Origin: Blastopirellula sp.
GTDB taxonomy: Bacteria; Planctomycetota; Planctomycetia; Pirellulales; Pirellulaceae
DNA: 36,995 nt
Reading direction: 5' to 3'
Assembly: GCA_002701545.1 (NCBI GenBank)
Contig: NZVR01000185.1
Span: forward strand, 1-36,995
Below, one piece after another: positions 10,525 to 25,624 of the stretch. How positions within the stretch are numbered: position 1 is the stretch's first letter; each line of letters opens with the position of its first letter. The notes beneath the pieces are model-generated. The model was not told where the DNA came from. It ran no database searches and worked only from the letters and a program-made list of their open reading frames with translations. The translations under genes and the position numbers were made by a program.

Positions 10525-11328
10525 TTAATGCAACGTACGGCTCTGCAACAAAGATCGCAAATGATCAGCAACCAGTTGCGGCGCATTTGGCTCCAACGAC
10601 TTGACCACAACCGAGAGCGAGGGAGTTTCCCCAGTCAAGCGCATCCGGGCAACATGATTCCGTAACAGGTCCAGCCGCGGATCCGTCGTTTCCAGCAGCC
10701 AGTGTGCCCACAACCAGGACTCGGCGTAATCTTGCTGGGACATCTGCTCGGGGCGCTCCAACTTCTCGAGCTGTGCCATGTCCGGAAACCACTTGCCAAA
10801 CTTGAGCTGCTCAGCAAGTAACTCGACGTGGGCTGCATTCACACCGCGTTGTCCGCGAGGCACCTCAAAGTATTCCGCAAACCCCTCATCCAACCACAAC
10901 GGCAAATTCGTCAGCACCGCATGCAGGTACCCGTGAGTCACCTCGTGTCGCAAATCTTCTCCCACACGGTCACCCCAATAGGCGTACACTTTCAGGCGTG
11001 TGTCCGTCTCCACGAAAAATGCTCGCCGATCAGGAAAGCTCGGATACTTTTTCGCAATGAATTCGTGGTATTCGCTGGGGGAGTCGAAAAGGAACACGTG
11101 AATCGGCTCGTCCGACAAGGGCAACTGGAGTTTGGCAGCCAAATCCAATCGCCGGGCAACCAACTCGTCCAGCAAGCGGTGCCGTTTCGCCAAGCGAAAA
11201 TCACTGTGAATCACAAGCTGATCACGCTCCACCTGATACGCATTGGGCGAGGAGATTTCTGTGCGCATCAGCGTGCACCCAGAAATCAAAACGCTAGCAA
11301 TGCATACGGCGCGATAAACGGTCTTCAT
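10525..11328 (-). CDS. Lipoprotein zinc metallopeptidase-like protein (DUF1570-like gluzincin)
   Basis: ATG 11328 has GAGG six bases upstream (11335-11338) and gives 267 residues beginning with a lipoprotein signal. The lipobox is LISGC, with Cys18 as the expected lipidated residue. The mature part carries HEVTH (H128, E129, H132), followed after 16 residues by the Glu of LDEGFAEYF (E148). This is the HExxH...E layout of gluzincins with three zinc ligands. It should be an envelope-anchored peptidase; the closest family I can name is DUF1570/peptidase-MA-like. It lies between a DUF1553 protein and an enolase-superfamily gene on the same strand. Confidence 0.82.
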   Translation of the reverse strand: MKTVYRAVCIASVLISGCTLMRTEISSPNAYQVERDQLVIHSDFRLAKRHRLLDELVARRLDLAAKLQLPLSDEPIHVFLFDSPSEYHEFIAKKYPSFPDRRAFFVETDTRLKVYAYWGDRVGEDLRHEVTHGYLHAVLTNLPLWLDEGFAEYFEVPRGQRGVNAAHVELLAEQLKFGKWFPDMAQLEKLERPEQMSQQDYAESWLWAHWLLETTDPRLDLLRNHVARMRLTGETPSLSVVVKSLEPNAPQLVADHLRSLLQSRTLH

Positions 11329-11436
11329 GATCATCCTCGTATCGAGGCGGCAGTGTAGCAAAGATGACCACACGACCGAATGGCAACCCTTTTCGGTGGC
11401 TAGCAGCAAAAGAACGGTGCGCCAGGCTCTCAAACG

Positions 11437-11475
11437 CCGCTCCACAGGGCCGCTCTACAGGACCGCTCTACAGGA
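11437..11475. repeat. Three 13-bp tandem repeats next to a stop codon
   Basis: Units at 11437-11449, 11450-11462 and 11463-11475. The last two are identical (CCGCTCTACAGGA) and the first differs at two bases. The array ends two bases before the stop codon of the minus-strand PSCyt1-DUF1549-DUF1553 gene, so it lies in that gene's 3' untranslated region. Confidence 0.85.
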
Positions 11476-11477
11476 CC

Positions 11478-14243
11478 TTAGGGCACAAAGACAAATTCAT
11501 TGCTATTGAGCAACGCTCGGGTGAATTGCGTCAGACCAAACTCGCGGATGAACTCCACCGCCGGCTGCACTTCGGAATCTTCCGCCGGCCGCCCGAAAGC
11601 CAACCTGTATGCCAGCCGAACCTGAGCGGTGTGCGTATCCCCCGCTTCAGCGACCAACCGTTCCGCCAAGATCTTCGCTTGTTGATTGACGAAGACACTA
11701 TTCAACAGGTTGAGCGCCTGCAACGGTGTGGTCGATCGACTTCGCTTCGGCACGACTTGGCTTGCATCCGGACAATCGAACACACCAAAAACGGAGTCTT
11801 TTTCTTGCCGCACCTTTTCCATGTAGATCATCCGCCGCCAATCTTCAGCGGAATAAGATGTCTTCGGGAAATAGTGCCGCACGTTTTCCATTTGCACTTC
11901 AAACGCGCTAAAGCCTTGCCCACCTAAGCTAGGATTCAACGCACCGCTCACGGCCAAAATCGAATCCCGAATTGCTTCCGCTTCTAGCCGGCGTGGCGGA
12001 TATCGCCACAAAAGACGTGATCCCGCATCCACTTGCAGCGCTGTCGCCACCGGCAAACTTGACTGCTGCCACGTTTCCGACAATAGAATCTGCCGGTGGA
12101 GTTGCTTCAGTGACCAGCGTTGGTGTATCAGCTCGGACGCCAGCCAATCCAATAACTCGGGATGCGTTGGCGCAGTGCCGTTGGCACCCAAGTCATTTGG
12201 CGTATCCACCAATCCCACACCAAAATGAAATTGCCACAGCCGATTGACGATCACCCGCGCGGTCAGTGGATTTGCTTCACTCGCCACCCACTTTGCCAAT
12301 GCCAATCGCCGCATCGCCTCAGGCGTATCGGCCTGTAAGTCGAGTGACCCGAGCGCCAATACGGTATCTGGCACAACCGCTTCGCGAGGTGCTGTCGGAT
12401 CCCCTCGGTAGAGCCGATACGTTGGACCAGGCTGTGTGAATCGCCCGGCATAGACCTGCACGGGTCGCGCAAACTGCTCGCGTTCCTGCATCACCGACTG
12501 GAGACGCTTTAGCATTCGCCTTCCCGATTCAGCCTCTGCTGGTATCTGTGAAAAATCGTATTGTGTTGCGAGATCCGCCTTGGTTTGAAATGCAACTCGA
12601 TCGTCGGAACTTGCAACCGTCTCCCATTTGCCTGGTTCTTCTGCGACTTCAATGCGATATCGTACGGCGAGCCGGTCTGCGTATTTTTGTTCGCGATCAC
12701 GAGCCCACACGATCCGATCGATATTCGCAGGTTGGGCCAACTCAATCTGCACCCATCCCCCGGTTTGCTGTTTGGCGATCCAACTATGTGCATTCCCGTA
12801 GCGACCGTCATTAATGTGCGCGAGTTTATGGAGTCGGTGAACAAAGTCTCCTGACGAAGTAGGTTTCGCACCCTCACTCGCAAGTGCTACGTTTTTGCTC
12901 CCGGCAAAAACCTCCAGCTCGTCAATACACGGTTCACCTTGGTTTGTTTCCAGAATCGTGAAGCGAACAAAACGCGCGCGGCGGGCACTAAATTGCTCCT
13001 CATTCAAACCGGTTTTAACTGCAGGTCGCAGCGGCTTCCGTTTGGCAAACTTGGCAAGCTTCCCTTTCAGCTCACTGATTTGCTTATCGCGAACTTCCAA
13101 GCCACGCTGTTGCTCTGCGGTCACAGGCAGCACGCTTTCCGCATGCTGGACACCGGAAAACACCGCCTGCAAAGCGTAGTAGTCTGACTGCCGAATGGAA
13201 TCAAATTTGTGATTGTGACAACGGGCGCAACCGAGAGTAAGACCTAAAAACGCCGTACCCGTTGCGTTGATCATGTCGGCCAGTTCGTCTTGGCGTTGCG
13301 TCAACCGCAACAACGCGTCTTGTCCTTTGACGATGTCATACGGACCCGCGACTAGGAATCCCGTGCCAACTGGATCCCCGAGTTGATCGCCCGCCAGTTG
13401 CGCTGCAACAAACGTGTCGTACGGTTTGTCACCATTGAGCGAGTCAATTACCCAGTCACGATATCGCCACGCGTTCGGGCGTTCACGGTTGGTTTCAAAC
13501 CCATGCGTCTCACCAAAACGTACGATATCCAACCAATGGGTTCCCCAACGTTCACCATAATGCGGACTAGCCATCACGCGGTCGACTAAACGCGCCCAGG
13601 CATCGGGTCGTTCGTCCGCCACATAAGCGTCTATCGCATCCGGCTCCGGCGGCAGACCGAGCATCACCAGATACAGTCTACGAATGAGCAAGCGTCGCTT
13701 GGCGCGGGATGAGCTGTGCAGCCCCACTTGACTCAAACTGGCTTGGACCAAGGTGTCGATCGCATGCTGCTGAGTTGCCGCATCCAGTGACGGACGCGTA
13801 ATCGGCCGCCATGACCAATGGTCATTTTGAGTCTCCGCCAAAGCTGCTTGCGCCGCAGCCCAACTGGGCGCGTGATCGATCCAACGCTGAATGATCTTGA
13901 CCTCGCCGTCCGAGAGACGATCGCCTTCGGGCGGCATCCGCCGTTTGACGTCGGTGCTGGTCACCAATTCCACCAGGTAACTTGCTGCACTCTTGCCGGG
14001 GACGACCACACGTTCACCGGAATCACCTCCTTGCAGTGCGGCTTGCACACTATCCAGCCGCAAAGCCGACTCCTGGGTATCAGGACCGTGGCAGTCGTAG
14101 CAATGCGTTTTCAAGATCGGAACGACGTCTCGTTCGTAGTCCACTTCGTCTGCAGACAACGGGGCAACGGCCATCGCCAAGCTACCGAACCAGGCGATAG
14201 CGAGCAACCAAGGTAATCGTTTCGACAATGACACAGGTTCCAC
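11478..14243 (-). CDS. Planctomycete PSCyt1-DUF1549-DUF1553 protein with discoidin-like insert
   Basis: The protein has 921 residues from GTG 14243 (GGA six bases upstream), starting 16 bp after the propeller gene. In order: a signal peptide (about 8-31); a PSCyt1 cytochrome-like domain with CYDCH (C48, C51, H52) and MPP (M107); DUF1549 (about 160-370) with a second CxxCH (C339, C342, H343); a discoidin/F5-8C-like insert (about 421-552, with FVRFTI, DELEVF and WVQIEL); and DUF1553 (about 630-905). CxxCH implies covalent haem. In planctomycetes such proteins are often linked to sulfated or complex polysaccharide degradation, which would fit a carbohydrate-binding insert. The usual DUF1501 partner is absent here. 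Confidence 0.9.
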   Translation of the reverse strand: MEPVSLSKRLPWLLAIAWFGSLAMAVAPLSADEVDYERDVVPILKTHCYDCHGPDTQESALRLDSVQAALQGGDSGERVVVPGKSAASYLVELVTSTDVKRRMPPEGDRLSDGEVKIIQRWIDHAPSWAAAQAALAETQNDHWSWRPITRPSLDAATQQHAIDTLVQASLSQVGLHSSSRAKRRLLIRRLYLVMLGLPPEPDAIDAYVADERPDAWARLVDRVMASPHYGERWGTHWLDIVRFGETHGFETNRERPNAWRYRDWVIDSLNGDKPYDTFVAAQLAGDQLGDPVGTGFLVAGPYDIVKGQDALLRLTQRQDELADMINATGTAFLGLTLGCARCHNHKFDSIRQSDYYALQAVFSGVQHAESVLPVTAEQQRGLEVRDKQISELKGKLAKFAKRKPLRPAVKTGLNEEQFSARRARFVRFTILETNQGEPCIDELEVFAGSKNVALASEGAKPTSSGDFVHRLHKLAHINDGRYGNAHSWIAKQQTGGWVQIELAQPANIDRIVWARDREQKYADRLAVRYRIEVAEEPGKWETVASSDDRVAFQTKADLATQYDFSQIPAEAESGRRMLKRLQSVMQEREQFARPVQVYAGRFTQPGPTYRLYRGDPTAPREAVVPDTVLALGSLDLQADTPEAMRRLALAKWVASEANPLTARVIVNRLWQFHFGVGLVDTPNDLGANGTAPTHPELLDWLASELIHQRWSLKQLHRQILLSETWQQSSLPVATALQVDAGSRLLWRYPPRRLEAEAIRDSILAVSGALNPSLGGQGFSAFEVQMENVRHYFPKTSYSAEDWRRMIYMEKVRQEKDSVFGVFDCPDASQVVPKRSRSTTPLQALNLLNSVFVNQQAKILAERLVAEAGDTHTAQVRLAYRLAFGRPAEDSEVQPAVEFIREFGLTQFTRALLNSNEFVFVP

Positions 14244-14259
14244 TTTCGATCCACATCCG

Positions 14260-15207
14260 CTATTTGAGAGTATTCTTTTCCAACGGCTTGCCGTTGGTCG
14301 TCAGAATCTGGAAATGATGGAATCCACTGTTCATTCCGTTGTAACGCCATACGACTTTTTTATCGCGCGTTACCTCAAACAGTTTGACGGCATCACCCTT
14401 GGCATGATAACTCGAAATCACCGTGTTCCCGTTCGGCAAACGCTGCGCTCCACACGCGTCGTCGAACAGATTTTCGCCAAGATCTTCATTGTCAACACTC
14501 CAAACAATGTCCCCACCTGCATTGACCTCAATAATGCGATTGCCGTTGGTGCAAGCAATCAACGTGTTGCCATTACTTAAACGTATTGCTGTGAACGGCC
14601 AATCACGCTTGCCGCGCCCGCGATCGTCCGTCGGAAACATGGACAACACCTTTCCGTTGGCCGGATCGTACTCTTTCACTGCGAAGTCCAATAAATGTGG
14701 CGCCAGATAGTTACCGTTTGGCAAGACTCGTAACATGCGCGTCTGCATATGAAAATTATTTTTCTGACAAGCCAACGGAGTGGATCGCACTACGTTGCCG
14801 CTCGGATTCACCACGACCGCCTGCGGTTCCGGACCTAGCTCGACAACGAGGTAATTCCCGTCCGCCAGTTTTTGTACCGTACTGGTCTCTTTCTGCTGTC
14901 CCTGGTAGGCAAAGATCGTTTTCTTGGTCTGACGATCGACTTCAATCGCTCCGCCATTTGGAAATCCTGGAGTGCTATAAAGCGCTAACAGGACATTGCC
15001 ATTCGGCAAAACCCACCCATCACTGGCCGGCTTCGCAAGCTTCCACACTACCTTCCCACTGTCGTCCACAATGACTGCCTGATTCGCCTTGCCGACACCC
15101 AAAAACGAATGCGTCACCGTGTCCGCCGCCGAAACAACAGTCGTCCACAGCATCACCATACTGATCACCAACGGTAAAGCACCCTGGCGGTTTGGGAAAA
15201 TCATCAT
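14260..15207 (-). CDS. Exported beta-propeller protein (PQQ/NHL-like)
   Basis: ATG 15207 has GAGGAG nine bases upstream (15217-15222) and begins a signal peptide with likely cleavage after VSA27, giving 315 residues. The frame itself reaches ATG 15330. The mature part consists of repeats of about 45 residues, each containing a variant of L-P-N-G-N (LPNGNVLLAL, LADGNYLVVE, LPNGNYLAPH, LSNGNTLIAC, LPNGNTVISS). These are blades of a propeller of perhaps six blades. No catalytic residues are recognised. It sits 16 bp before the DUF1549/DUF1553 gene and is very likely co-transcribed with it, so it may be its periplasmic partner. Confidence 0.85.
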   Translation of the reverse strand: MMIFPNRQGALPLVISMVMLWTTVVSAADTVTHSFLGVGKANQAVIVDDSGKVVWKLAKPASDGWVLPNGNVLLALYSTPGFPNGGAIEVDRQTKKTIFAYQGQQKETSTVQKLADGNYLVVELGPEPQAVVVNPSGNVVRSTPLACQKNNFHMQTRMLRVLPNGNYLAPHLLDFAVKEYDPANGKVLSMFPTDDRGRGKRDWPFTAIRLSNGNTLIACTNGNRIIEVNAGGDIVWSVDNEDLGENLFDDACGAQRLPNGNTVISSYHAKGDAVKLFEVTRDKKVVWRYNGMNSGFHHFQILTTNGKPLEKNTLK

Positions 15208-15338
15208 CGACACAAACTCCTCATCTAAATTGGCTTTCCACGCATCAGACGCATCCAGTCTAACGACGCGCTCGCTGACGTGCCACTTGGACTCCACCAC
15301 TTGATCCGATTCACCACTCAGGACACGCATCCTGCTGC

Positions 15339-15415: not shown

Positions 15416-16666
15416 TCAGCGCGCAAAATAGAGATTCAACCAATCGGCGTAGTCCAGGACATCTCCCTGGTCGGCAAATTCGACCACCAGCATCACACCG
15501 CGGGCATTCGCCACATCGACAGACAATGGCGCTGGTCGGGCCCCGCCACGCACAGGTTCACTTCGAAATACGGTTTGCCAACCTTCCTCCGGGCGGTTCA
15601 CGAAAACTCGATACAGGACACTCCCTCCTTGACCGGCCTGATCATCAATCGCCAACTGCCCTTCCAATCGCGTAACACCCTTGGGCACGGAATAAACGAG
15701 CCGCGAAGTACTGTGCATGCCCACACCCTTCAGCGTTAACTCGGCGCCGGCCCGCAGCCTTCCGCCGAGCACATTGCGATCCGGTTGATACTCCCAACGA
15801 CGCTGTAAAAAAGGAATGTGCTTGTAGTCGATTACCTTGAGGTCCGAGAGGTAAAGACAGTCGCCACCCAGCGGCTGTAAACAGACGGTCACATCCACCA
15901 CCGTCTCCAGATCGGTATCGATTTCCAACCCACACACCAGTCGCAACATCATGCTGCGTTTCGTTTGGACTTTGGCTACCCATAATAAACTGCCATCGTC
16001 CAGCCCAAAACCGCAACGCAATCCGCGCAGACTCGGGGTCTTTCGTAGCGCAGGATCGAAGATCACCGCCGTGATCTTTTCGTAACGTATCGCGACCGGC
16101 TCGTCCGCAGACGGCAGACGAATGTTAATTTTGGTCAACACGTCATCTGCCGACCTGGGTCCGACTCGCGGTTTCTCAGAAATGACCCCCTGGACTACGT
16201 CACCATTTTCCATCAGCAATCGATCTTGAGTCCCTGCCGCCGTGCGAATCTGATCCAGCAGCAGGTCCCGACGCAAGGGATCCATCGGCGGCTCCAACAC
16301 CATGCCGGCGACCTGTGCCAAAGGGATTGCAAGTTCCCCAAACACATCGCTGTAGACAGACAGGGTGTCATCATCAATGGACAGAATTTCAGCAACCAGT
16401 ACTCCACCATCGGCGAGCACGACCTGTGCCCCGGAATCATCATCCCGGTACGCCCCCCACCGCACCAAGCGACGTCCCGCAACTTCGCGTTCCTGACCGT
16501 CAACTGCGAATGTAAAGGTCCAATCGTCGGCGATGTCCGCCAATTTGGCAGATACAGGATCCGCATCCAGCGTGAAGCAACGGCGCTCCTGTTCCGCCGC
16601 CGGTAGTTGACAAACCAGCGCGCAACACACAAACAGGAATGTCCGGAAAAACACCATTCTCGACAT
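15416..16666 (-). CDS. Exported NPCBM-domain protein
   Basis: The protein has 416 residues from ATG 16666, five bases after the stop of the upstream cyclase-fold gene; a TTG at 16675 would overlap it. It begins with a signal peptide (hydrophobic core about 6-20, cleavage near A23-A24). The N-terminal ~270 residues are beta-rich and not recognised. The last ~140 match the NPCBM (GH98-type carbohydrate-binding) pattern, with LKGVGMHS, then LEGQLAIDD, VLYRVFVN and a terminal WLNLYFAR. It probably binds glycans in the periplasm or on the cell surface. Tight spacing places it in an operon with the cyclase-fold gene. Confidence 0.82.
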   Translation of the reverse strand: MSRMVFFRTFLFVCCALVCQLPAAEQERRCFTLDADPVSAKLADIADDWTFTFAVDGQEREVAGRRLVRWGAYRDDDSGAQVVLADGGVLVAEILSIDDDTLSVYSDVFGELAIPLAQVAGMVLEPPMDPLRRDLLLDQIRTAAGTQDRLLMENGDVVQGVISEKPRVGPRSADDVLTKINIRLPSADEPVAIRYEKITAVIFDPALRKTPSLRGLRCGFGLDDGSLLWVAKVQTKRSMMLRLVCGLEIDTDLETVVDVTVCLQPLGGDCLYLSDLKVIDYKHIPFLQRRWEYQPDRNVLGGRLRAGAELTLKGVGMHSTSRLVYSVPKGVTRLEGQLAIDDQAGQGGSVLYRVFVNRPEEGWQTVFRSEPVRGGARPAPLSVDVANARGVMLVVEFADQGDVLDYADWLNLYFAR

Positions 16667-16671
16667 CGCGA

Positions 16672-17727
16672 TCAATTCTGAAAAATTGGCAAGTAGTTGT
16701 TAGGCATCTGCAAAACAATACAGGCCATCGCGGTCCCGTATTCCGGACAGATTTGCGAGAACCAAGCTCCTTCGTCGCGTTGTTTATTCAGCAACACGTC
16801 ATGGATCGCCGGATACCACTTCTTCCAACGTTCACCACCGGCATGCCACATGGCTTGAACACCATAGTAGTGTCCATAAAAGAAATGCCCACCGCGCACG
16901 GGAGCATCAGCATGGGGCACATGCTGCATGAGGTAGTCAAGCCCACGCTCCAACTCTTCTCCCTCATAGATCCCAGCGCTATACAATGCCACGACTCCGG
17001 CGGCACTTCGCGGAAACAGGCTTTCTCCTGGCTGGCTCAACATGTACATGAAGCCGCCATCCGCGTTCTGACTTTGCTTGACGTACTCAATGCATTTCTC
17101 GATCGTTTCATTGGGCACGTAGATACCGGCGTTACGTGCCGCACGCAGCGCCATCACTTGGCAGATGGTAACCGAGATATCCGCATCCAGCTTTTTGGGT
17201 TCGTAGCGCCACCCACCCTCATCGTTTTGGGTTTCCACAATGAGCTTGATTGCCTTTTCCAGCTTTTCACGGAGTGCTGGATTTCGCGACATCCCGTGAG
17301 CTTCGGCAAGAAACAAGGTGGCAAACCCGTGACCATACATGCGTCCTCGCCCCGCACTCGCGGCAGCTGTAATAAACCCACTCGGTTGCACATTGTTGAG
17401 GATATAGTTCAGCGATCGCTGGACTTGCTGTCCAAAACGCCCGCGTCCCGGCGTGCTACCGCTCGCCATAAACGCCATCCCACTGAGCGCGCAGACGGCG
17501 ACATTTCGGCTATAACCGCGCGATCCGAACGAACCATCTTCATTCTGCTGGCTCTTGAGATATGCCAACCCTTTGCGAATTGCCTCGCGCGTCTCCGGCT
17601 TCATGAGATTCCGCGATGACTTCCGCGAGTTCCTATCCTGCCCCCAGGCAGTCCCCGTCAGCGCACTGCAGAAGCCGGCAGTCACACCTGCCATCCACTC
17701 GCGACGCTCCAAACAATGCCGTGCCAT
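16672..17727 (-). CDS. Exported prenyltransferase/squalene-cyclase-fold repeat protein
   Basis: The protein has 351 residues from ATG 17727. The N-terminus (ERREWMAG, then a hydrophobic stretch ending TAWGQ) looks like a secretory, possibly Tat-type signal. The mature part has the alpha/alpha-barrel repeat of squalene cyclases and prenyltransferase beta subunits, with QW-like turns QNEDGSFG (61-68), QNDEGGW (167-173), QNADGGF (220-226) and QRDEGAW (316-322). The DxDD acid motif of class II terpene cyclases is not present; only D-A-D-I occurs at 181-184. A binding or scaffold role is therefore as likely as catalysis. The operon context is membrane vWA and coiled-coil proteins, not isoprenoid genes. 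Confidence 0.85.
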   Translation of the reverse strand: MARHCLERREWMAGVTAGFCSALTGTAWGQDRNSRKSSRNLMKPETREAIRKGLAYLKSQQNEDGSFGSRGYSRNVAVCALSGMAFMASGSTPGRGRFGQQVQRSLNYILNNVQPSGFITAAASAGRGRMYGHGFATLFLAEAHGMSRNPALREKLEKAIKLIVETQNDEGGWRYEPKKLDADISVTICQVMALRAARNAGIYVPNETIEKCIEYVKQSQNADGGFMYMLSQPGESLFPRSAAGVVALYSAGIYEGEELERGLDYLMQHVPHADAPVRGGHFFYGHYYGVQAMWHAGGERWKKWYPAIHDVLLNKQRDEGAWFSQICPEYGTAMACIVLQMPNNYLPIFQN

Positions 17728-17801
17728 GGACAGGCTCTCACCAACGTTAGAATTTTGACCAGCTGTGCAATGATGGGTGGGGAAATCGAAAACCGCAGCG
17801 C

Positions 17802-18533
17802 CTACCGATCTTCAGCATCTTCGGTCAATCGTTCGTAATACTTCTCAATCAACGCTTCGTATTTGGACAGAAACTGCTCTGATGCGGCATTCTGCATCTG
17901 TTCGCGAACTCGCACGGGAAGATGGCCCCACACTTCCTTCAGCATCTGCTCCAGTTCTTCACGTTGAACTTGGGCGTCCTCCGCCTCACCGTCCCGCATC
18001 TGACTCTCACTGGAAGCCTTGTTGCCCGCCTGATTGCCCTGCTGGTTCCCCTTCTTCTGAGGACCTGGTTTGCTGCCAGGTTTGGGTTTTCCTGCCTGCG
18101 GTTGCTGCTGCTTGGGTGACTGGCAATTACATTGTTTCTTGACCAACTGAATCATTTCCGTCAGTTCCGCCACAATCTGCTGTTGAATTCGCTGCGTTTT
18201 CTCGGCGGTTTCCTGTTCGGCAATCAGTTCCTCCACGGCCCGCATCCGATTCGCAATCTTAGTCAACGGATCTCCTTCTTCGCCGATGTCTTCACCGTCT
18301 CCCAACTGATCCAGGAGCGCATCATCCAAAGGATCGTCGCTACCTTTCGCTTTTTCCACCTCATCTTCCAGCGACAGGTCATCCAATCCTTCCAACAAAT
18401 CGCCTTCGAGGTCATCCAGCAGTTGCTGATCAAGTGACTTGTTGTCCTTGGTCGAGTCATCCTGGCCGTAACTCACCTGCCCGCCAAGCAACAAGCCGCA
18501 TACAACCAATCCGATCCACTTTGTCTTTCGCAT
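17802..18533 (-). CDS. Small exported acidic/coiled-coil protein, function unknown
   Basis: The protein has 243 residues from ATG 18533, two bases after the TGA of the upstream gene. AGGA within that gene's last codons serves as ribosome site. A GTG at 18539 overlapping the stop (GTGA) is the alternative. It has a signal peptide (about 4-23, ending VSYGQ), a very acidic Leu/Asp segment (about 30-90), a helical segment (about 90-135), a Gln/Lys/Pro/Gly-rich linker and a C-terminal helical region. No known domain is recognised. Tight coupling to the DUF4175-like gene suggests a periplasmic partner of it. Confidence 0.8.
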   Translation of the reverse strand: MRKTKWIGLVVCGLLLGGQVSYGQDDSTKDNKSLDQQLLDDLEGDLLEGLDDLSLEDEVEKAKGSDDPLDDALLDQLGDGEDIGEEGDPLTKIANRMRAVEELIAEQETAEKTQRIQQQIVAELTEMIQLVKKQCNCQSPKQQQPQAGKPKPGSKPGPQKKGNQQGNQAGNKASSESQMRDGEAEDAQVQREELEQMLKEVWGHLPVRVREQMQNAASEQFLSKYEALIEKYYERLTEDAEDR

Positions 18534-18535
18534 CT

Positions 18536-21500
18536 TCACTTATCCTGTTTGCTGGAAGTGCCTGCATCCAACTCCCGTAACAACTCGTCGTCCAAGCCTT
18601 CGTCGTCCAAGCCTTCGTCATCCCGCACGTCGGGCAGGTCCTCCGGATTGTCCTCCGGATTCTCCATCACCTGTTGTACAAGATTCAGAATCATCTCGGC
18701 CAACTTCCCTTGCTGTTCCGACAAATCCACCAGTTCGTCTGCCTGGGCATCGGTCAGCATGCCGCTCATCTGTCGCTGCTGTTCTAATTCTAACGTGCGG
18801 CGATTGACTTCCTCTTGCAATAATTTTACCAATTTCAGTTCGGCAAGTCTCTGGATTCCATCCGCGGGAGGCTGCTGATTCTGACCTCCCTCGCCTCCTT
18901 GCTGTTGCTGGGGTGGTTGCTGGGGCCCCTCCTTCAAGTCCGGCTTCAATGCCTCTTTCAACTGATTCAATCGCACCAATGCGTTGGCCTGAGCCTGTTG
19001 CGTATCTTGCCCGGTCTCCCGTCGCTCCAGTCCGCTTGCCGAGCGAGCCATTTCCTGCATCGCTCCGCGTAGCGCAAACACAAACGTTTCCGCTTGTTCC
19101 AGTTTTTCACTCAGCGCTCTCGCATCGTCGGCCATGAGCCGCTGTTCCGCCGCGAGATCCCCGACACTCGCAAGTTGTGAACGTTTCAAACTGCCGTCCT
19201 GGGATTCTCGTAGTGTCTCGAATTCCAGCGTCCGCTGATTCACGGTGGTCTGGCGTTTAATGAATCCGGTGATCGTCTGTTCGAGTCGCACGAGCTGCTC
19301 GTTGAGCAGATCTTGTTCTTTTTTCTGTGCCTCCTGCTGCAACTGCTGCTCCGCCTGCTCCAACAGTTTTTCACTTTGCTGAGCATTTTCCAAAGCCGAC
19401 TGCTGCTCGCCCTGCTGTCCCGCTTGAGCCCCCTGTTGCATCGTCGCGGCGGCTTCTTCCATGGTACTGCCGGGTTTTTCAGCGCGCAATCGCTGCAGCC
19501 GACGGCGCATCGCTTCCGCCTGCTTGGCGAGCTGTTCTTGTTCACGTGCCAAGCGCATCAGCTCACGTTGCTTGTCTGCTGGTTTTTTCTGCTGATCGCT
19601 TTCCAATGACTTGAGCTTACGTGTGAGCGCACTCTGCTGGGTTTTCAAATCGGCAACGTCCGCTTCTGCTTCTCTCAGCTTCTCCGTCAATCTTCCCAAT
19701 TCGCTTTCGCGACGATTCGACAACACGTCCTGAACTTCTTTGAGGCCGGCCATCGCTTGCTTCTGCAAGTTGGACGCTTGCCCTGCCTGCCCCTTCTCCA
19801 CGCTCCGGCCGCTTTCGCGCATCTGCGACGACACCGCATTACGGCGGGCGGCATCCAGTGCATCGGCGATGGTTGCGGCCGCCAAGGGATCCGTATCCGC
19901 GAGCTCTGCTTGCATCTTGTCCATACGGCTTTGCACACGATCAAAGCGACGAGCCAACTCCATTTGCCTCAATGCCAATTGACGCATCTCGGCCCGCTGC
20001 TGCGACTCTTCCTCATCGGTTGTCGTACCGAACATTTTCGCACGCTGCGATTGTGTTTGACTTTGCAACTCTTCTTGCTCGCGTCGGATGCGTCCCACTT
20101 CACGGGCAAATCGACGATAGTTATCCCACTGTGTGAGATCGCCGAGCAACGCCTCGAGTTTCTGAATCACTTGGCCTTGTCCGACCGTGGCCGCACTCAG
20201 GGAATCATTAATTTCCTTGAGTACCTGCGGATCCTCTGGTGACCCGCTGGCGCGTGCCACTTTCAGCGATCCAATCAACTCGCGCTGCACTGCGGGTATT
20301 TCCTGTCGTGCCATGCCATTGACGACATCCAAGATCTCCCGCAACTTACGGTACACTTCCGGCCGATCCACGCGGTTTGCGTTCAGGTCCTCTAACACTT
20401 CACGGATACGTGCCACAACGCTGTCAGATCCGCTGGTCAGCAGGCGCGTCACGCTCCGTTGATTTAATTCAGCACTTTGCAGTTGATCCACATCGGTACT
20501 GGCAATGACCTTCGTCTCGACAAGTTGCACTTGCAGTGACTCAGTTTGCGTACGAGCAGCATGCTGCAAGCGAAGCACTTCGGCCAGTTGACCCAGGATG
20601 GTGGATTGCCTGGCAGCGACACGATCTTCCAACTCATCAATGCTGATGATCGTAATGCGACGCGAACCACTCTCCCCAGCATTGGGCTTATAATCCCGCG
20701 CGCGGACATAGAAATCGAACTGTGTTCCGGCTGTCAACGTACCGGGTAAGGCATTCAATTCCCATTGATATTGGATATCGCGACTTTCACCGGTTAGCAC
20801 TGCCAGATCTTGCCCTGCGAAGTCGGGCGGATGCTCTGCTCGATACAATTCCACCACCTGCTCGCCCACATCTGTCTGGTCAGATCGCACGTACACAAGT
20901 TCCGCTGACGCAATTCCCAAATCATCTTTAACCAGCGCCGCAATCGGCACGTTCGCCTCCGCGGTCAAAAATTTGGGACCGGCCGGTTTTTCCAATGCGA
21001 CACTTGGGGCAAGATCCTTGATTGCCCGGACTTCCCACTGTTGCTCACTGCGGCCGACTAATCCCTCGGTGTCCACCAGATCCAGCCAGAACGTATCCGA
21101 CTCTGCGATCTCCCAGGGTGTGTTCGTTGCTTCATCGCCTCCCGGTAACCAAAACGAAAGGCCATCGGCTCCCACTTGAACCTCGACATCCAAAGGTCTT
21201 TCATCACTCTCTCGGCGGAGCAGCACCTGACGCACAGGTTTGGTAACCTGACCTCGGATCCCAATCTTCGACCCGATCAGAACGCGCGTTGTCGCAGCCA
21301 GTTCCTCCACGGGTAAACCACTGTAAACCGGAGGATCAATCCGCGTCGACACGCTGACCGTTCGCGGTGGTTCGACAATTTCCAGGTCTTGCCAGTTCAT
21401 GGCCTGATCATCGCCACCTCGCGCACGGAACTGGAAATTTTTGGTGACATTCGTCAGTCGTAATTCGGCAACATTTTTCGACAGAACAACAGGTGGCTCG

Positions 21501-22216
21501 ACGTCGATTTGGCTGCGCCCCTCAACCCGATATTCGACCACCACGTCGTCAGGCAATGCGCCATTCGCATCCACCAGTGTCGCCACGAAGTCTTGTCCGG
21601 CAGCCAGACGGTGAGGCGTATCCTGAAATTTCAACTCGTGGCGCCGTGGCCAATCCTCGCTACCCCAGGGGATCACCATGCGTTTCAGTGCCAAGCCGGA
21701 TGCCGTGGTATTCCAGCCACCAATCAATGCAGCAACAAGGCAAACTCCCACCGCCATGACGGTTGCCTTGGTCGCGCGTGAACGGTCCAAGCAGGCCCCG
21801 AAATCGTACTCTGCCAGCCGCGCTGTCGCTTCCGCCACCACGGCGCGTCGCAATTCAGGGGATCCGGCTGTCGGATCATCCTCTGTCTGCTGCAAAAACT
21901 CCATGGTGCTCGACAGACGGTCACCGCAATCCGGCAGGTGTTGCTCGATGCGACGCGCCAACGCGACATCGCTGATCCGAAAGCGCCAAGCAGGCTGAAC
22001 GAACCAATACGCAGCCCAAACAGCGACAGCCACCACACTCAGTGACAAAATGACCCGGACACCCGTATCGCTAATGCGACAGGTGTAATCGATCAACCCA
22101 GCCAACAGGACAGCGCTTACGACCATCGCTGCGAATCGCGCGACCCCCTGCTGGAACAGCAGGCGATGCGCTCGCGCACCAACAGCACGTACTTGTTTTT
22201 GCAGCGGATGTAACAT
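18536..22216 (-). CDS. Giant DUF4175-like membrane and coiled-coil protein
   Basis: The protein has 1226 residues. The N-terminal part has three predicted membrane segments (about 28-45, 53-73, 151-168), followed by periplasmic Ig-like beta segments up to about 530. Then come about 600 residues of heptad-rich, Gln/Glu/Arg-rich coiled coil. The tail is very acidic and includes the duplicated D-D-E-G-L block, encoded by a 15-bp DNA repeat near 18588-18617. The layout resembles DUF4175 proteins found beside vWA/Bat genes. A scaffold spanning the periplasm is an inference. It follows the vWA gene by 73 bp and is coupled to the next gene. Confidence 0.85.
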   Translation of the reverse strand: MLHPLQKQVRAVGARAHRLLFQQGVARFAAMVVSAVLLAGLIDYTCRISDTGVRVILSLSVVAVAVWAAYWFVQPAWRFRISDVALARRIEQHLPDCGDRLSSTMEFLQQTEDDPTAGSPELRRAVVAEATARLAEYDFGACLDRSRATKATVMAVGVCLVAALIGGWNTTASGLALKRMVIPWGSEDWPRRHELKFQDTPHRLAAGQDFVATLVDANGALPDDVVVEYRVEGRSQIDVEPPVVLSKNVAELRLTNVTKNFQFRARGGDDQAMNWQDLEIVEPPRTVSVSTRIDPPVYSGLPVEELAATTRVLIGSKIGIRGQVTKPVRQVLLRRESDERPLDVEVQVGADGLSFWLPGGDEATNTPWEIAESDTFWLDLVDTEGLVGRSEQQWEVRAIKDLAPSVALEKPAGPKFLTAEANVPIAALVKDDLGIASAELVYVRSDQTDVGEQVVELYRAEHPPDFAGQDLAVLTGESRDIQYQWELNALPGTLTAGTQFDFYVRARDYKPNAGESGSRRITIISIDELEDRVAARQSTILGQLAEVLRLQHAARTQTESLQVQLVETKVIASTDVDQLQSAELNQRSVTRLLTSGSDSVVARIREVLEDLNANRVDRPEVYRKLREILDVVNGMARQEIPAVQRELIGSLKVARASGSPEDPQVLKEINDSLSAATVGQGQVIQKLEALLGDLTQWDNYRRFAREVGRIRREQEELQSQTQSQRAKMFGTTTDEEESQQRAEMRQLALRQMELARRFDRVQSRMDKMQAELADTDPLAAATIADALDAARRNAVSSQMRESGRSVEKGQAGQASNLQKQAMAGLKEVQDVLSNRRESELGRLTEKLREAEADVADLKTQQSALTRKLKSLESDQQKKPADKQRELMRLAREQEQLAKQAEAMRRRLQRLRAEKPGSTMEEAAATMQQGAQAGQQGEQQSALENAQQSEKLLEQAEQQLQQEAQKKEQDLLNEQLVRLEQTITGFIKRQTTVNQRTLEFETLRESQDGSLKRSQLASVGDLAAEQRLMADDARALSEKLEQAETFVFALRGAMQEMARSASGLERRETGQDTQQAQANALVRLNQLKEALKPDLKEGPQQPPQQQQGGEGGQNQQPPADGIQRLAELKLVKLLQEEVNRRTLELEQQRQMSGMLTDAQADELVDLSEQQGKLAEMILNLVQQVMENPEDNPEDLPDVRDDEGLDDEGLDDELLRELDAGTSSKQDK

Positions 22217-22289
22217 AGGTGACCTGCCCTATTAGATCATCGTCTTTTATTAGACCATCATTCAGCTGGTGTCGCGACAGGAATTCGAT

Positions 22290-24707
22290 TTACAACAGGC
22301 CGACGCGCTTCCTCAGTAGCCACTCGGAAACCAACAAGGTGATGAACAAGCCAGCCAACAGGGAAGAATTCCAGATCGGCTGTGGGGCAAGTGGTTGGAT
22401 CCGGACTTCCCGACCTGCGGGCAAGTCTTTCCATAGCTGATCAGCCGCCGAAACGGGGTAAAACTCACCCCGCGATGCCTTAGCGGCCAACCGCAGATCT
22501 TCTCCATCCATCTCCAGACGCGTCCGCTCGCCGGGCGGCGCCGTCACCAGAAACTCGCGTGCCGGAGGTTGTCCTTCCAAGGTTGGCGTTGCCATCCAGG
22601 CCCGGTAGTCACCTTCGGGCAGGTCGGTCGCCACACCTTCGAAATATCCTCGCCGATTGGCATCCCTCGACAAACGGACTTGTCTTCGCTTACCCCCATC
22701 GCGCTCCACAATGACGGTCACACCATCATCCTGCACCGGAGCCAAACGCTCGTCAAAGAAACGGACGGCCAACCGAACCGGTTCGCCACGACGATATGTG
22801 TCCTGGTCAAACGGCATCTCTGCACCGCGGTCCTTGCCCAACAACTTGCTACGGCTCAGGTAGCGTAACATCTGGATCCAGTAGCGGGTGTAATATTGGC
22901 GCCCATCCTCGTGCCGGGACCAGCGATAGGACTCATCAGTCAAATGCAAAATCACTTTGCCGGCGCCGACATACTGCCAGACCACCACCGGTAAATTCTC
23001 ACCCGTCGTGCCTGTCCGCGTCGGGTGGACAGCCAAGACGCGGGCTGCCGGTCTGCGATCAGGAGCTTCGATGAACCAATACAAAGGTGGCATGGACCGC
23101 CACGCCTGGCTGCTTTGCATGGCATTCTCACCAATCTGTAACATCGGCGAGTTCATCCCCAAACCGGTTGGCTGCGTGACAAACTCGAACTGTTCATCCA
23201 GATTCAATGTCGAGTCCGGCATCACTGCCGTGTCGAGATTGATAGGCAGCAGTGAGGCCAACGGCGTATCGCGATAAGCCAGCGGTGTATTTTGGGGGCC
23301 CGACAAAAAAACGATACCACCACCACGCTCTCGAACAAAGGCATCGATATTCTGCATCACACTACGATTCAGAAACGACGGATTCACATCACCAAAAATA
23401 ATGACGTCATACGCAAACAGCTCTTCGCGGGTCACGGGAAAGACACGCGTCGCCGAAGCGTCCTGTGCTGCATACTCGGCATCGGCCTCATGCAACACGG
23501 TTGTCAATTCGATCGCTTTCTCTGTCTCCGATCCCTGTTTAAGAATCCGTTCCAACATTGACTTCAAAAACTGAAATTCGTGACTTGCGTAGTCCTGGAC
23601 CAGCAACACGCGCAGCGTCTCGTCACGTACTTGAACAGTTTCTGTTTTACGGTTGTTCTCTAGACTGGCTTCTCCTGCCAGCTGGTCCGCTTCGACCACA
23701 TACTCAAAGTCGCCTTGCTCCGTCGGCCGATGCGACAGGCGCACGGACTGCAACCGCGTTTCCTCGTCGAGATCGATTTCCGTTTCTGCCAAAATCTCGG
23801 ATTCACCTTGGCGTTTAAGACGCAGCTTAAGTTTTTCTCCTGCGTAACCACTGGCGGTCACTTTGAAATCAAAGTTGACGACATCATTAACAAACACCAT
23901 GTCGTCCACCACCAACTCACTGAGACGCACGTCTCGCGGCGCTTGCTCGCTACCCAGACCCACGACGTACAGTGGCACCGCCTTGCGTCGTGCATACTCA
24001 GCCACTTCACCAAGCGACTTGCCTTCCGTCGTCACACCATCGGTAAGCAGCACCACGGCAGCGGTGGGTCGACCGCGTTGTGTTTCCAGAATATCTCTCA
24101 AGCCATCGCCCAGCCGACTTGCTTCCTGATTCGAATCCAGCTGCTCGATCACTTGCGACAGCGTCTCCGGATCCTCTGTGGACGCCACACGTGCTGATCC
24201 GCCCACCCGAAAAAACTTGACGTTATAGCGGGCCTGCAAGGCGCGCAGCGATTGGCTGTCATTCTCCAGTAACAAGACTTTCGCCAAATTGGCGCGCGTG
24301 AGCTCCTGAAAACCACCGGCTTCGATCTTGGCGAGCAGTTCGGTGCGGACTTTTTCCTCGTCGTAATGATCGACCAACATCATGCTCTCGGAGTCGTCCA
24401 CGACAACGACGATATCCGGTAGGTCGGTCTTGTGCTGGTTTCGCATCCAGCCGTACATCATGAACACCACAATCAGAACCAGCGCGGTACGTATGGAAAT
24501 CAACAACACGTTCCACAGCGCGGATCCGGAACTGCGTTCGCGCAGGTAGATGGCAACAATCCATGCCAAAGCCCCCATTACGACCAGCAAGGTGACCCAC
24601 GGCGCGAACGGCCAAGTGTGCGAAATGGTGGTTTGAAGGCCCTCACCCGCCTCCGTCGATTCCTTGCCGTACAGGGCGTCAACGATCTTAATAAAGAATT
24701 CGTTCAT
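22290..24707 (-). CDS. Membrane vWA protein with glutamine-amidotransferase-like domain (Bat-like)
   Basis: The protein has 805 residues from ATG 24707; the frame reaches TTG 24746, but that extension is not conserved-looking. There are two membrane segments near 36-55 and 65-86. A vWA domain follows with an intact MIDAS D-D-S-E-S (D104, S106, S108) and a later LLTDG. Next come beta-rich periplasmic segments and a Rossmann/amidotransferase-like segment (VIIFGDV, then GGGIVFLSGPQ), probably without the catalytic Cys. A C-terminal membrane helix lies in the last 25 residues. This is the layout of BatA/BatB-type proteins, which usually work with MoxR ATPases. No moxR or DUF58 gene is adjacent: the upstream neighbour is divergent rph. 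A candidate promoter lies at 24761-24791. Confidence 0.86.
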   Translation of the reverse strand: MNEFFIKIVDALYGKESTEAGEGLQTTISHTWPFAPWVTLLVVMGALAWIVAIYLRERSSGSALWNVLLISIRTALVLIVVFMMYGWMRNQHKTDLPDIVVVVDDSESMMLVDHYDEEKVRTELLAKIEAGGFQELTRANLAKVLLLENDSQSLRALQARYNVKFFRVGGSARVASTEDPETLSQVIEQLDSNQEASRLGDGLRDILETQRGRPTAAVVLLTDGVTTEGKSLGEVAEYARRKAVPLYVVGLGSEQAPRDVRLSELVVDDMVFVNDVVNFDFKVTASGYAGEKLKLRLKRQGESEILAETEIDLDEETRLQSVRLSHRPTEQGDFEYVVEADQLAGEASLENNRKTETVQVRDETLRVLLVQDYASHEFQFLKSMLERILKQGSETEKAIELTTVLHEADAEYAAQDASATRVFPVTREELFAYDVIIFGDVNPSFLNRSVMQNIDAFVRERGGGIVFLSGPQNTPLAYRDTPLASLLPINLDTAVMPDSTLNLDEQFEFVTQPTGLGMNSPMLQIGENAMQSSQAWRSMPPLYWFIEAPDRRPAARVLAVHPTRTGTTGENLPVVVWQYVGAGKVILHLTDESYRWSRHEDGRQYYTRYWIQMLRYLSRSKLLGKDRGAEMPFDQDTYRRGEPVRLAVRFFDERLAPVQDDGVTVIVERDGGKRRQVRLSRDANRRGYFEGVATDLPEGDYRAWMATPTLEGQPPAREFLVTAPPGERTRLEMDGEDLRLAAKASRGEFYPVSAADQLWKDLPAGREVRIQPLAPQPIWNSSLLAGLFITLLVSEWLLRKRVGLL

Positions 24708-24760
24708 GCTGCCGAAATACAGATTGTTCCCCTCTGCCTTCCCCAATGCGCCAATGCTTC

Positions 24761-24791
24761 ATTGTAGCAGCTTCGGTAGGTGCAGCGGCAA
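24761..24791 (-). promoter_or_regulatory. Candidate promoter for the vWA/DUF4175 gene run
   Basis: On the minus strand, TTGCCG (24791-24786) and TACAAT (24766-24761) are 19 bases apart. The -10 matches at 5/6; the spacing is longer than ideal. The predicted start lies about 47 bases before ATG 24707. Confidence 0.4.
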
Positions 24792-24901
24792 GTCTCCATA
24801 GCCGTTTCCAAAACAAATGCCCCTCCGCGTTGACGTATCGTGACGCTCGGGTATGTTGACCCGTTTCCCGTTCTCCAAAGCACCCAGACGGCTGATCTTC
24901 C

Positions 24902-25624
24902 ATGACACGTCAACACGACGAATTACGCTCCATCTCGATCCAGCGCAACTTCACCAGAACAGCGGCGGGCAGCGTGCTGTTCCAAGCCGGAGGTACGACG
25001 GTCCTTTGCACAGCCAGCATTGATGCCAGCGTACCACCTTGGCTCGAAGGCAAAGGAAAAGGCTGGATCACAGCCGAATACAACATGCTGCCCGGCAGCA
25101 CGAGCCCCCGAAAAAAACGTGATCGCGGTGGCAAAGTCGACGGTCGCACCACAGAAATTCAACGCTTGATCGCTCGCAGCTTTCGCGCGACAGCCGACCT
25201 GGAAGCGCTCGGAGAACAGCTGATCACGGTCGACTGCGATGTACTGGAAGCTGACGGCGGCACGCGAACGGCCAGCATCACCGGCGGCTTTATCGCCCTG
25301 GTGGACGCCATACGCTCGATCCAACACGCGCTACCAAATCCCGACGTCTTTCCTCTGCGCGACAGTGTGGCGGCCGTCAGTGTGGGTGTCGTCAGTGAGC
25401 AACTCACGCTGGACTTGGATTATGAGAAGGACTACGCGGCGGACGTTGATATGAATGTCGTCATGACAGGAGGCGGGCGCTTCATCGAAGTTCAAGGGAC
25501 CGGAGAAGAAGCGACGTTTTCGGAAGAAGACCTGCAAGGCTTGATCCGCCTGGCCAAAACCGGGATCCAGCAACTGACCGCACAGCAAGCCGCTGCCTGT
25601 GGCGCTGACTGGCCGTTCTCGTAA
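24902..25624 (+). CDS. rph: Ribonuclease PH
   Basis: The protein has 240 residues, the family's normal length. RNase PH is a phosphorolytic 3'-5' exoribonuclease that trims tRNA 3' ends. Visible hallmarks are the N-terminal D-E-L-R (usually D-G-R), TTVLCTAS, AEYNMLPGST, DGRTTEIQRLI, the phosphate-binding GGTRTASITGG (119-129), and the D-Y-x-x-D-x-x-A-x-V-D-M-N-V-V-M-T block (about 173-189) carrying the catalytic Asp. It is transcribed alone and diverges from the vWA gene. It ends 36 bp before a tandem repeat array that separates it from the convergent ABC ATPase gene. Confidence 0.96.
   Translation: MTRQHDELRSISIQRNFTRTAAGSVLFQAGGTTVLCTASIDASVPPWLEGKGKGWITAEYNMLPGSTSPRKKRDRGGKVDGRTTEIQRLIARSFRATADLEALGEQLITVDCDVLEADGGTRTASITGGFIALVDAIRSIQHALPNPDVFPLRDSVAAVSVGVVSEQLTLDLDYEKDYAADVDMNVVMTGGGRFIEVQGTGEEATFSEEDLQGLIRLAKTGIQQLTAQQAAACGADWPFS

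Follow-up and report, generated by a model that had tools for sequence, protein, structure and literature searches.

Five co-directional genes in the window, by which we mean the whole analysed stretch of 36,995 nucleotides of Blastopirellula sp. DNA, very probably form the rear half of a nine-gene MoxR/Bat operon of the Planctomycetia that has been scattered in this genome. We put the probability of this reading at about 0.9, a figure that covers the identity of the operon and its scattering and excludes the mechanism. The original prediction had described an envelope system without MoxR; this description had to be given up, since orthologous X-MoxR and DUF58-BatA gene pairs occur in the same genome.

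A compact five-gene locus

All five open reading frames lie on the minus strand of the window and are tightly packed (Table 1). DUF4175 and SML overlap by 4 bp, as do CYC and NPCBM, and the remaining gaps measure 73-74 bp, in agreement with the tight coupling first proposed. The start of VWA was placed at the ATG at 24707, which corresponds to the invariant M1 of the alignment, in preference to a TTG at 24746. The DUF4175 match (PF13779) scored 29.9 bits against a gathering cut-off of 27.3 and is partial, spanning positions 182-393 of the 825-position profile, while the NPCBM match (PF08305) reached 77.5 bits against a gathering score of 23.9, bearing out the predicted NPCBM protein. Neither MoxR nor DUF58 genes were found within the window or adjoining VWA, whose upstream neighbour is the divergent RNase PH gene, so the predicted absence of both from the immediate neighbourhood held. 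Downstream of NPCBM, the last gene of the operon, positions 10525-15330 carry co-directional DUF1570-like, PSD1/PSCyt (with an F5/8 domain) and PQQ/ASST-like genes; these were rejected as members of the system because they do not adjoin NPCBM in relatives.

Table 1. Features of the locus and its upstream boundary in the window.
Feature	Coordinates	Strand	Description
VWA	22290-24707	-	vWA domain with intact MIDAS; Pfam VWA 1.6e-6
DUF4175-like	18536-22216	-	1226 aa; Pfam DUF4175 2.1e-7
SML	17802-18539	-	245 aa, acidic, exported; no Pfam family
CYC	16672-17727	-	351 aa, exported; Pfam SQHop_cyclase_C 1.5e-13
NPCBM	15416-16675	-	exported; C-terminal NPCBM/NEW2 domain; Pfam NPCBM 1.3e-21
Break point	24708-24901		site at which relatives have BatA upstream
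RNase PH	24902-25624	+	divergent upstream neighbour of VWA

A nine-gene operon in related genomes

We compared the regions around DUF4175 orthologues from 40 related genomes; the junction table scores 33 genomes. The commonest gene order was X-MoxR-DUF58-BatA-VWA-DUF4175-SML-CYC-NPCBM, in which X encodes a protein with TPR repeats and a PQQ propeller. X-MoxR and DUF58-BatA lie directly upstream of VWA in most relatives, making VWA the fifth gene of the ancestral operon and the first of the surviving rear half. All eight junctions are intact on a single contig in 16 of the 33 scored genomes, and the order in one more (G003) is consistent with an intact operon but crosses a contig end. At named loci the same operon occurs in Pirellulales and Isosphaeraceae, and Gimesia loci hold VWA-DUF4175-SML only. 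A phylum-wide search with X returned strong matches mainly within the same class. Failure of the five families to co-occur in other genomes had been named as grounds for abandoning the original prediction; when this was tested, they were found to travel together in related genomes. Chance neighbourhood was rejected on the junction table and on the recurrence of the operon at the named loci.

Among the traits of a MoxR/Bat operon, a MoxR gene adjoining DUF58 and membrane vWA genes is not found in the window, whereas the vWA protein has an intact MIDAS and membrane anchors, and relatives carry the same operon, whose orthologues this genome has kept. The operon belongs to the known MoxR/Bat kind as an uncharacterised variant; our search found no experimental work on it, and no title or abstract returned describes it.

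The front half is retained elsewhere in the genome

Searches with the relatives' proteins located the genes that had been considered missing, with X-MoxR on contig C93 and DUF58-BatA on contig C22. Complete paralogous MoxR-DUF58-BatA-VWA operons are also present in this genome; the operon models scored the C93 and C22 copies above the genome's own next paralogue in every case (X, 669 versus 78; MoxR, 644 versus 562; DUF58, 532 versus 381; BatA, 863 versus 395). The tetranucleotide composition of both contigs correlates with that of the window (r of 0.96 for C93 and 0.94 for C22). A tree of the rear half grouped the window with G024, G001 and G033 (SH-aLRT 100), and a separately built tree of the front half placed it with G001 and G033 (100) and then with G024 (97). 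The scattered parts are orthologous and have a shared vertical history. Since G001 holds all nine genes together, while the window's genome, G024 and G033 are broken at different junctions, the intact order is likely ancestral in this clade. We are highly confident that the operon of this lineage was rearranged into three retained pieces, namely X-MoxR, DUF58-BatA and the window locus.

Because the genome is a draft of 229 contigs with 8.55% contamination, one could suspect that the scattering arose in assembly or binning. This explanation is extremely improbable, however, as RNase PH adjoins the break, which falls within contig C145 itself, and composition and trees agree. Moreover, the operon is also split in three single-contig genomes (G019, G006 and G042), indicating that scattering is not an assembly effect. 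We rejected contamination or an assembly break on the model scores, the trees and the composition.

Further observations concern other loci. The same genome has, on contig C28 (L049 6181-18001 plus L102 1-6345), another complete operon of analogous make-up in the order CYC-MoxR-DUF58-BatA-TPR-PQQ/HEAT-VWA-DUF4175-like-coiled coil-TPR-NPCBM; the N-terminal part of its NPCBM protein shows a weak LSM-like match. Contig C71 (L104 2561-16684) holds a third MoxR-DUF58-BatA-VWA-DUF4175-like operon, with one more MoxR gene in front of it. On C93 (L283 6140-7174), an open reading frame judged by eye to be ROK-type kinase-like follows MoxR at the place of DUF58 in relatives. Contigs C223 (L105) and C201 (L106) carry near-identical pieces of the VWA region, which suggests duplicated assembly or a mixture of strains.

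The operon breaks often but its genes are kept

In the 33-genome table, breaks were counted at X/MoxR in 0 of 30 genomes, MoxR/DUF58 in 4 of 32, DUF58/BatA in 7 of 32, BatA/VWA in 3 of 31 and VWA/DUF4175 in 6 of 33. Six of the eight junctions (MoxR/DUF58, DUF58/BatA, BatA/VWA, VWA/DUF4175, DUF4175/SML and CYC/NPCBM) are broken recurrently, with three to five changes each on the tree. Both SML/CYC breaks in the table and two of the five DUF4175/SML breaks (G012 and G016) are really fusions of SML, so the DUF4175/SML count is overstated. Outside the table (L313 6624-14668 and L316 8708-11017), X and MoxR of G026 are 4.4 kb apart and G023 has X without an adjoining MoxR; the pair is therefore not unbreakable. 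Two Thermoguttaceae (L247 and L252) share the window's layout, in which VWA comes first and BatA is lacking. In G058, BatA was seen only as a fragment at a contig end.

Thirteen genomes were treated as split, of which G003 is the contig-end case, leaving 12. X, VWA and CYC are kept in all 12. Among 21 genomes in which DUF4175 matched weakly or not at all, X and CYC also tend toward joint loss. Of 52 relatives overall, 50 have both or neither (Fisher 3e-10, or 7e-8 with two ambiguous genomes counted against, both uncorrected for kinship), although paralogues of the C28 type blur presence calls for CYC in distant genomes.

These patterns bear on whether the rear half could be a MoxR-independent envelope assembly, with the front-half genes found elsewhere serving paralogous systems. 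Such independence would fit a window that holds neither MoxR nor DUF58, the many operon junctions that can break, and the genomes in which DUF4175 stands alone (L067, L068 and L093). It is nevertheless quite improbable given the retention of X, VWA and CYC in all 12 broken genomes examined, the shared losses of X and CYC, and front-half pieces in this genome that are of the operon type rather than paralogues; we rejected it because the front half was found in the same genome. As the operon scatters often, the lack of an adjacent MoxR gene is weak evidence of MoxR independence in planctomycetes. What appeared to be an exception, a vWA protein without MoxR, becomes a rule: one conserved gene set keeps its parts even when the operon is broken up. 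The results also provide a defined gene list and test species with an intact operon for work on the MoxR system of a cell envelope that is itself unusual.

Features of the VWA, DUF4175 and SML proteins

The expected membrane vWA protein with an intact MIDAS was recovered, with DDSES at residues 104-108 and the LTDG aspartate at 223. It has transmembrane segments at 37-55 and 67-85, a C-terminal hydrophobic segment and a weak GATase1/ThuA-like domain, and its large domains look periplasmic by a positive-inside reading. The DUF4175 protein (pLDDT 85.6, pTM 0.53) had been described as three helices followed by a giant coiled coil. Its length and the three N-terminal membrane helices stand, but the single coiled coil does not: the model contains Ig/FN3-like beta domains at about 195-523, then a helical region at 526-1184 (about 660 residues) that is broken into helices no longer than 68 residues, and an acidic tail.

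SML is small and acidic as predicted (20.8% D+E) and has a conserved C-terminal motif, WGxLP...FLxxYExLIExYYxRL. In nine genomes SML forms the C-terminus of the DUF4175 protein, which indicates that the two proteins belong together; on the tree this fusion label needs 6 changes, at least 3 of them forced by well-supported branches. Free SML opens with a segment resembling a signal peptide, so the C-terminal part of the fusion proteins is expected to lie in the periplasm, and with it the helical region of DUF4175. By eye, an acidic LDxxLLxxL-type motif (18300-18640) is common to the N-terminal part of SML and the C-terminal tail of DUF4175 and could be a shared binding motif.

CYC is a conserved toroid without DxDD

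The structure prediction for CYC (pLDDT 89.8) is a single (alpha/alpha) toroid of the squalene-cyclase/prenyltransferase type, resembling AprG, terpene cyclases, sugar epimerases/hydrolases and TED domains. The cyclase fold without DxDD was foreseen correctly: the motif is absent from CYC, the corresponding stretch being DAD[ILMV]S in the alignment and DADIS in the window protein. CYC scored 35.6 bits against a cut-off of 431.1 for the squalene-hopene cyclase equivalog TIGR01507, and its 351 aa compare with about 620 aa for that enzyme. We rejected a terpene cyclase on DxDD and size. The modelled fold alone appears compatible with several functions and does not decide among them.

The original prediction assigned CYC the part of a scaffold. 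An alternative that concerns this role, and not the identity of the operon, is that CYC may be an enzyme acting on an envelope sugar or isoprenoid-linked glycan, with the other operon genes serving its maturation or placement. In mean identity (57%, compared with 33% for DUF4175) CYC ranks third among the nine proteins, a degree of conservation more in keeping with a site for binding or catalysis than with a passive scaffold. An enzyme is also suggested by fold matches to MmpH, cellobiose 2-epimerases and GH76 as well as to AprG and terpene cyclases, by the neighbouring NPCBM domain, which belongs to a glycan-binding family, and by the twin-arginine-like signal at the start of many orthologues, fitting export in folded form. 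On the other hand, TM-scores are only about 0.6, TED toroids of the complement type are almost equally good matches, no catalytic motif is recognised and DxDD is incomplete. Enzymatic activity is a serious contender that falls a little short of even odds.

A proposed mechanism

We infer that the operon most likely serves to assemble or remodel an envelope complex, driven by MoxR. The mechanism is drawn by analogy with other MoxR/vWA pairs such as NorQ/NorD, in which an acidic patch on the client is the proposed ligand of the MIDAS (PMC9976466), and as a whole it is tentative, with the odds leaning against it. A cytoplasmic MoxR ring together with DUF58 would do conformational work on BatA and VWA, the membrane vWA proteins, whose MIDAS sites would capture an acidic partner, perhaps the tail of DUF4175 or the LDxxLL-rich acidic part of SML. 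A periplasmic DUF4175-SML bundle may then relay this work to the CYC toroid and to the NPCBM protein, which binds glycans, and the system would thereby assemble, load or check an envelope structure, either glycan or surface. Direct contact between ring and vWA domain is unclear, given that MoxR is cytoplasmic and the large domains of VWA are apparently periplasmic. An envelope location with a glycan-binding end, as first suggested, is plausible; the span across the periplasm that was also suggested is a conjecture. An ATP-driven machine common to the class, running from MoxR through vWA and DUF4175-SML to a toroid enzyme exported by Tat for modifying or loading a glycan at the surface, its full set kept despite scattering, is a bolder and unlikely extension.

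Comparison with known systems

CYC shares the alpha-alpha toroid and QW-like repeats of squalene-hopene and type II terpene cyclases but differs from them as a single exported toroid of 351 aa without DxDD. In the literature searched, DUF4175 is mentioned only for AdvA, a cell-division protein of Acinetobacter that, in the excerpted text (PMC7481262), carries the DUF4175 annotation and transmembrane helices like the window protein; those excerpts describe no link of AdvA to MoxR, and the likeness noted is one of annotation and membrane helices. MoxR, vWA and beta-propeller components likewise co-occur in the bpMoxR ternary conflict systems, in which propeller and vWA are always parts of one fused protein (PMC7159879). 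Here, by contrast, the propeller resides in the separate TPR-PQQ protein X, the vWA protein has a GATase-like domain, and a Pfam domain search found no propeller match in VWA; assignment to these systems was rejected on this architecture. A close parallel lies in the Bat operons of Riemerella (PMC11834572) and Borrelia (PMC5700661), where genes for a MoxR AAA+ protein, DUF58 and membrane vWA proteins are likewise adjacent. Relative to these operons as the abstracts present them, the planctomycete operon adds X and the DUF4175-like, SML, cyclase-fold and NPCBM proteins, and in the window's genome it is split.
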